Source: Fidelibacterota bacterium (GTDB taxonomy: Bacteria > Fidelibacterota > Marinisomatia > SCGC-AAA003-L08 > TS1B11). From it: 64,000 nucleotides of DNA. Under the pieces are notes generated by a model that saw nothing but the letters and a program-made list of their open reading frames with translations, was not told the DNA's origin and searched no databases. Shown here in pieces: positions 42,526-43,572 of the stretch (the stretch's first letter is position 1; each line of letters starts with the position of its first letter). The position numbers and the translations under genes are program-made. The stretch is taken from the NCBI GenBank assembly GCA_020354025.1, contig CP070638.1, positions 1,625,243 to 1,689,242 of the forward strand. The letters are read 5' to 3'.

Positions 42526-43572
42526 ATGCACAAGCGCCTGACGCAACTCAGCCACGGCGCGGGTTGAGCCTGCAAGCTAGGTCCTGAGGACCTGGCCCGG
42601 GTTCTGGGTCAGCTGCCGCACCAGCCCGCCGACGAGCACATTATCGTCAGCTTCGAGTCAGCTGACGACGCCGCTGTATTCCGTCTCGGCGAGGATCGCC
42701 TCCTTGTTCAGAGCACGGATTTCTTTACTCCCATCGTGGACGATCCCTACCAGTTCGGACAGATAGCAGCCGCCAACGCTCTCTCCGACATCTACGCCAT
42801 GGGTGCCCGGCCTCTGTTCGCCCTGAACATCGTGGCTTTCCCCCGCGAAGAGCTCCCCCTGGATACCCTGACAGAGATCCTCCGGGGCGGTATGGACAAG
42901 GCTAACGAGGCGGGTATCCACATTATCGGCGGCCATACCATCGACGACTCTGAGCCCAAGTACGGACTGGTAGTCACCGGCGAGGTCGCCGAGAAAGACC
43001 TTGTCCGCAACGACGGCGCGAAGATCGGTGATCAGCTGGTGCTTACCAAGCCGCTGGGCACTGGCATTATAGCTACTGCCATCAAGCAGGGGAGAGCACC
43101 CGAAGATGTAGTGGTACGAGCCGTAGAGACCATGACTGAACTGAACCGCGATGCAGCGCAGGCGGCGCTTGATGCAGACATCAACGCCATGACCGATGTT
43201 ACCGGTTTTGGCCTGCTGGGTCACCTGCTGGAGCTGTGCACGGCAAGCAATGTCCAAGCCGCCGTGGACTTTGCCGCCCTACCGCTGTTGCCCGGTGTGG
43301 TTGACATAGCTGAACAAAATGCAATCCCCGGCGGCACCCGGCGCAATCTGGACCACGTCCGCAGAGCACTCACCCTCGAAGGAGAGGTTTCTGAGCTGGA
43401 TCAGCTCCTGGCCGCCGACGCCCAGACATCGGGGGGATTGCTCATTGCCGTCAGCCTTGATAAAGTGCACGATCTTGTCGACCGTTTGACCGAAAAGGGC
43501 ACGCCGGCCACGGCGGTCATAGGTGAGATAACCGGTGGGGGGCAGCCTGGTATTACCCTGCGCGGCAGCTAG
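42526..43572 (+). CDS. selD: Selenide, water dikinase, itself a selenoprotein (in-frame TGA at 42565-42567)
   Basis: SelD makes selenophosphate for selenocysteine and selenouridine. The frame starting at ATG 42526 reads MHKRLTQLSHGAG, then TGA, then ACKLGPEDL; in other SelDs the TGA position is the catalytic Cys (or Sec) of HGAG(C/U)xCK. With TGA read as selenocysteine the protein has 348 residues, the family's normal length, and continues with STDFFTPIVDDPYQFGQIAAANALSD and TSGGLLIAV. A small hairpin 11 bases after the TGA would serve as SECIS. A caller that stops at TGA reports only 42736-43572. Sec-containing SelD is known in several bacteria; it implies selA, selB and selC elsewhere in this genome. 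Confidence 0.93.
42579..42593 (+). promoter_or_regulatory. Candidate bacterial SECIS hairpin in selD
   Basis: AGGTCC-TGA-GGACCT is a perfect six-base-pair stem with a three-base loop. The loop begins 18 bases after the recoded TGA and has G in its first two positions. Both fit the published bacterial SECIS consensus (loop 16-37 bases downstream, G among its first two bases). Confidence 0.65.

Follow-up and report, generated by a model that had tools for sequence, protein, structure and literature searches.

The selD gene in the stretch of DNA analyzed here (64,000 nt, hereafter the window) almost certainly encodes a selenophosphate synthetase (selenide, water dikinase) that is itself a selenoprotein, with UGA codon 14 predicted from sequence to specify selenocysteine (Sec). 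The gene spans positions 42526 to 43572 of the + strand, from an ATG at 42526 to a TAG at 43570-43572, and its product is 348 amino acids long including Sec14. The only in-frame TGA (42565-42567, + strand) lies between MHKRLTQLSHGAG and ACKLGPEDLARVLGQ. When this TGA is translated as Sec (U), the product matches SelD models over its full length (TIGR00476, 408 bits with a cut-off of 125; PRK00943, 384 vs 299) and contains the Pfam domains AIRS and AIRS_C. We aligned the product to the Cys-type SelD of PDB 3u0o, and Sec14 and Lys17, three residues further on, fell on catalytic Cys17 and Lys20. The alignment agrees with an earlier note on this DNA, which held that the TGA separates the SelD N-terminus from the remainder of the protein at the catalytic site. 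That note also correctly expected gene callers that stop at TGA to drop the first 70 residues: under table 11 the gene is started at GTG 42736. Reading through the TGA restores the full annotation of an enzyme that is central to selenium use and that ORF callers shorten by 70 residues.

The genome that contains the window is a single contig of 3.40 Mb and 95% complete. It carries selA (530 bits) followed directly by an adjacent selB (328 bits), as well as one tRNA-Sec with the anticodon UCA (75 bits). Searching for selA, selB, and the selC tRNA was a check proposed in the earlier note, and finding all three together with selD bears out its expectation that Sec implies a full selenocysteine system. 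The selD gene in the window, with one TGA inside, is the only SelD member above cut-off in this genome. The note had further suggested that other selenoproteins may be present; searching family by family, we predicted at least two. One is a SelW-like protein of the SelT/W/H family (genome G000, contig C1, positions 3040618-3040833, - strand; 78 aa; PF10262; TIGR02174 over cut-off) with a CAQU motif, and the other is a peroxiredoxin-like protein (same contig, 2343893-2344201, - strand; AhpC/TSA fold, PF00578) with a UPPC motif. Sequence downstream of the SelW-like gene can pair, when read by eye rather than as a computed minimum fold, as a hairpin with a short GGUCU loop, which resembles the loop of E. 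coli fdhF. For the peroxiredoxin-like gene, the computed fold is a hairpin with a GGA loop, and in both genes the candidate SECIS hairpin lies 21 nt after the UGA. The start of the peroxiredoxin-like gene is uncertain, because a Gfo/Idh-type frame runs into it through another TGA. No in-frame TGA was found in the genome's members of the Molybdopterin (including FdhA), Thioredoxin, and CMD families, and no selenouridine synthase (mnmH/ybbB) matched above cut-off. A search for GrdB/PrdB gave no match, and its controls likewise gave none.

We surveyed SelD across the phylum and detected it above cut-off in 141 of the 199 genomes searched. Most of the frames are about 350 aa long with one TGA, and the remainder are mainly about 740 aa long without a stop, so that Sec-SelD is the form of the enzyme met most often in the surveyed genomes of Neomarinimicrobiota. 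Judged by SelD, the nearest named relative is CP070656.1, the chromosome of a Candidatus Neomarinimicrobiota bacterium (74%). The frames of about 740 aa have Cys (TGT or TGC) in a CxxC motif and fit known Ndh-SelD fusions (PMC2398784, PMC4561486). Two relatives (G126 and G061) have both a stop-free frame of Ndh-fusion length and a Sec-SelD, and two others (G103 and G165) have two Sec-SelDs each. No SelD above cut-off was found in genus g18 (family f4, with genomes of about 0.7-1 Mb), in family f23, or in G195, a single-contig, 70% complete genome from the same genus as the window. Selenium use has likely been lost in some lineages of the phylum.

Extending the comparison beyond the phylum, we aligned 186 SelD genes, which belong to isolates as well as MAGs and some of which were drawn from one genome via two collections. 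The records examined include Bacillota, Verrucomicrobiota, Desulfobacterota-type bacteria, Actinomycetota, and Zixiibacteriota. The catalytic codon is TGA in 159 of these genes and a Cys codon in 27, and the Cys forms are mostly Ndh-SelD fusions. Comparing SelD with Cys and Sec forms, which the earlier note had also recommended, therefore places the TGA at the catalytic Cys, with its flanks kept and a Cys codon in its place in other SelDs.

These comparisons bear on three other readings of the TGA. It might be a true stop, with translation restarting at GTG 42736 or the gene decaying, and the standard ORF call does begin at that GTG. Such a shortened form would lack the segment with the catalytic Cys and Lys, yet RLTQLSHGxG upstream and ACKLGP downstream of the TGA are both conserved in relatives, and the genome has the full Sec machinery; we regard a true stop as very improbable. 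Less probable again is a sequencing error, for which one substitution in a TGC or TGT would be enough, but TGA occurs independently at this codon in most of the 186 genes, in isolates and MAGs from several phyla. For practical purposes, both a real stop and a sequencing error are excluded. TGA might instead be reassigned throughout the genome, for example to Trp or Gly, but we found nothing in favor of this reading and hold it to be just as remote as a sequencing error. In the selA/selB region, table 11 gives open ORFs that require no internal TGA, the only tRNA with a UCA anticodon in the loci scanned is tRNA-Sec, and in-frame TGAs sit at Cys/Sec redox positions.

With the TGA taken as a Sec codon, UGA codon 14 would be read by tRNA-Sec(UCA) delivered by SelB, which would bind an mRNA hairpin shortly 3' of the UGA. 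SelA would form the Sec-tRNA from selenophosphate supplied by SelD itself, and in the mobile N-terminal loop of the enzyme Sec would stand in for the catalytic Cys. In the bSECIS consensus, the stem-loop lies 16-37 nt after the UGA and the loop mostly starts with G[G/U] (PMC13188914). We number nucleotides from the U of the UGA as nt 1. Two hairpins follow the UGA of the window's selD, a proximal one (H1), which was the one seen in the earlier note, and a distal one (H2) directly downstream, which that note missed. A scan of the region against Rfam gave no relevant match.

H1 (42576-42596, + strand; nt 12-32) reads GCTAGGTCC-TGA-GGACCTGGC in the DNA and GCUAGGUCC-UGA-GGACCUGGC in the RNA, an exact stem of nine pairs, one of them G-U, with UGA as its apical loop. 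As a fold of a single sequence, H1 alone is unexceptional: folding 42562-42616 gave z = -1.5 relative to dinucleotide shuffles, 13 of 200 of which were equally good. Comparison across genes gave a stronger signal. Among 133 Sec genes that are distinct over their first 60 nt, a mean of 3.48 of 4 core pairs form, where the codons of these genes would by themselves give 2.35, and this excess occurs in all groups of Sec-SelD, including those that have no H2, and in no Cys form. Where Asp is replaced by Glu, nine of ten genes form a hairpin again in another register (as CUCG/CGAG or nearly so in eight), and the rebuilt hairpin outdoes nearly all synonymous versions; these genes are from Neomarinimicrobiota, Alkalibacillus, and one actinomycete. 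In three Sec-SelDs (L084, L085, and L098, from Zixiibacteriota and other bacteria), H1 is moved by 3 nt and has a GGU or GUU loop, an arrangement that is another variant of SECIS position.

H2 (42592-42612, + strand; nt 28-48) also has nine pairs and closes on the apical loop GUU at 42601-42603. It fits the bSECIS model in its G[G/U] loop (G36/G37-U38) and in its distance of 33 nt from the UGA. In the 90 of these Sec genes that have the motif LxQVL, on average 6.31 of 7 pairs of H2 form, compared to 3.87 expected and to 5.22 after column-wise permutation of the codons; the 27 Cys genes have excess pairing in neither H1 nor H2. We also scanned all 4-bp helices without preselection, using cluster representatives and synonymous-codon nulls. 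For the LxQVL genes, this codon-aware scan ranked H2 and then H1 highest (z of about 12 and 11), with a background maximum of 3.3, and for the Sec genes without LxQVL it returned H1 alone (z of about 10). Cys forms also produced large z values in the scan, which we dismissed since their observed pairing is low (no helix listed exceeds 2.3 of 4) and the null varies too little. Within H2, nt 36 and 40 pair as either G-C or A-U, depending on which synonymous codons are used for Gln and Leu, and none of 92 sequences has a mismatch. The pair changed about 10 times on a tree from which these codons had been left out, and both nucleotides moved together in all five supported independent pairs, a number at which the sign test has a floor of 0.06. 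Judged by these codon-level comparisons, both hairpins are under selection, and H2 is better supported than H1.

Because H1 and H2 share 42592-42596, at the base of H1, they can coexist only when one or the other is shortened at this place. When we folded the full-length RNA of the window, H1 was part of an outer stem that shuts out H2 (probability of the H2 core, 0.001); when the first 12 nt were removed, mimicking a ribosome at the UGA, both hairpins formed (0.82 and 0.99). This ribosome-like fold is a computation and not evidence of regulation.

The remaining question is which hairpin SelB would recognize. H1 might be the SECIS by itself, with H2 incidental or serving another purpose, a reading that competes with our assignment of the hairpins and leaves the Sec-SelD reading untouched. 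In its favor, H1 is kept in every Sec-SelD group, also where H2 is absent, and is rebuilt after an amino-acid change; its spacing of 17 nt and the G at the second loop position (followed by A) formally satisfy the bSECIS model (PMC13188914), and that spacing is nearer than the 33 nt of H2 to the 21 nt of the genome's other candidate SECIS elements. Against it stand the strong covariation in H2 and the release of the H1 loop from G[G/U] wherever H2 is present: the proximal loop fits G[G/U] in 29 of 30 representatives without H2 and in 10 of 41 with H2, and the H2 loop fits in 51 of 51. Part of this loop contrast comes from the amino acids, because the H2 loop is a Val codon. That conserved Val codon also means that conservation of the GU loop in H2 is not, taken alone, independent evidence. 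Synonymous choice at a Pro codon follows the same division, since the codon before Glu is CCG in 7 of 8 genes without H2 and in 3 of 16 with H2 (p = 0.002, from counts that ignore descent; the contrast is absent before Gly or Lys). We therefore consider it unlikely that H1 acts alone.

Our preferred reading is that H2 is the likelier site of SelB binding in the window's selD, which we judge probable from these sequence patterns, and we have similar confidence in the joint claim that adds H1 as an accessory element. The recoding signal would then most likely be bipartite, with H2 and its canonical GU apical loop recognized by SelB and the conserved H1, situated at the mRNA entry of the ribosome, probably aiding recoding. 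The claim in the earlier note that a perfect hairpin follows the TGA at the SECIS distance stands in that H1 is exact and conserved in Sec-SelDs, but H1 is probably not the SelB-binding SECIS by itself. More tentatively, Sec-SelD mRNAs of several phyla may share a bipartite signal in which SelB binds a distal hairpin and a proximal one is accessory, the canonical loop being proximal in lineages where the distal hairpin is absent; we offer this generalization as a possibility that we would not yet favor. If the bipartite signal is real, H1 and H2 would compete in the window's RNA until a ribosome reaches the UGA, and recoding, hence the supply of selenophosphate, could be tunable. The evidence for two hairpins provides a testable statement about the RNA element read by SelB in a large group of SelDs, and it suggests that SECIS searches that look for a single hairpin may choose the wrong element.

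Sec-SelD, or SPS2, selenoproteins have long been known, also from marine bacteria (PMC1794560, PMC2398784, PMC4561486), and in the GOS selenoproteome SelD ranks with the selenoproteins that are most widespread in marine samples (Zhang and Gladyshev 2008, PMC2398784). The bSECIS elements of Sec-SelDs are reported in a supplement of Mariotti et al. 2015 (PMC4561486), which may already show the two hairpins. In the literature searched, we found no description of SECIS hairpins in tandem in selD; what is new here may be the two-hairpin refinement only, Sec-SelD itself being known. The window's selD resembles the Sec-SelD/SPS2 genes described by Zhang et al. 2006 (PMC1794560) and Mariotti et al. 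2015 in enzyme family, Sec position, a bSECIS within the coding region, and exchange for Cys in relatives, and it differs only in its lineage (Neomarinimicrobiota) and in the resolution of two conserved hairpins. The Ndh-SelD fusions of the same phylum share a homologous SelD domain but are fused, have Cys in CxxC, and contain neither hairpin. Compared to bacterial SECIS elements of the E. coli fdhF type, H2 is alike in its spacing and its small G[G/U] apical loop and H1 also lies within the distance range, but the window's selD has two consecutive conserved hairpins rather than one.
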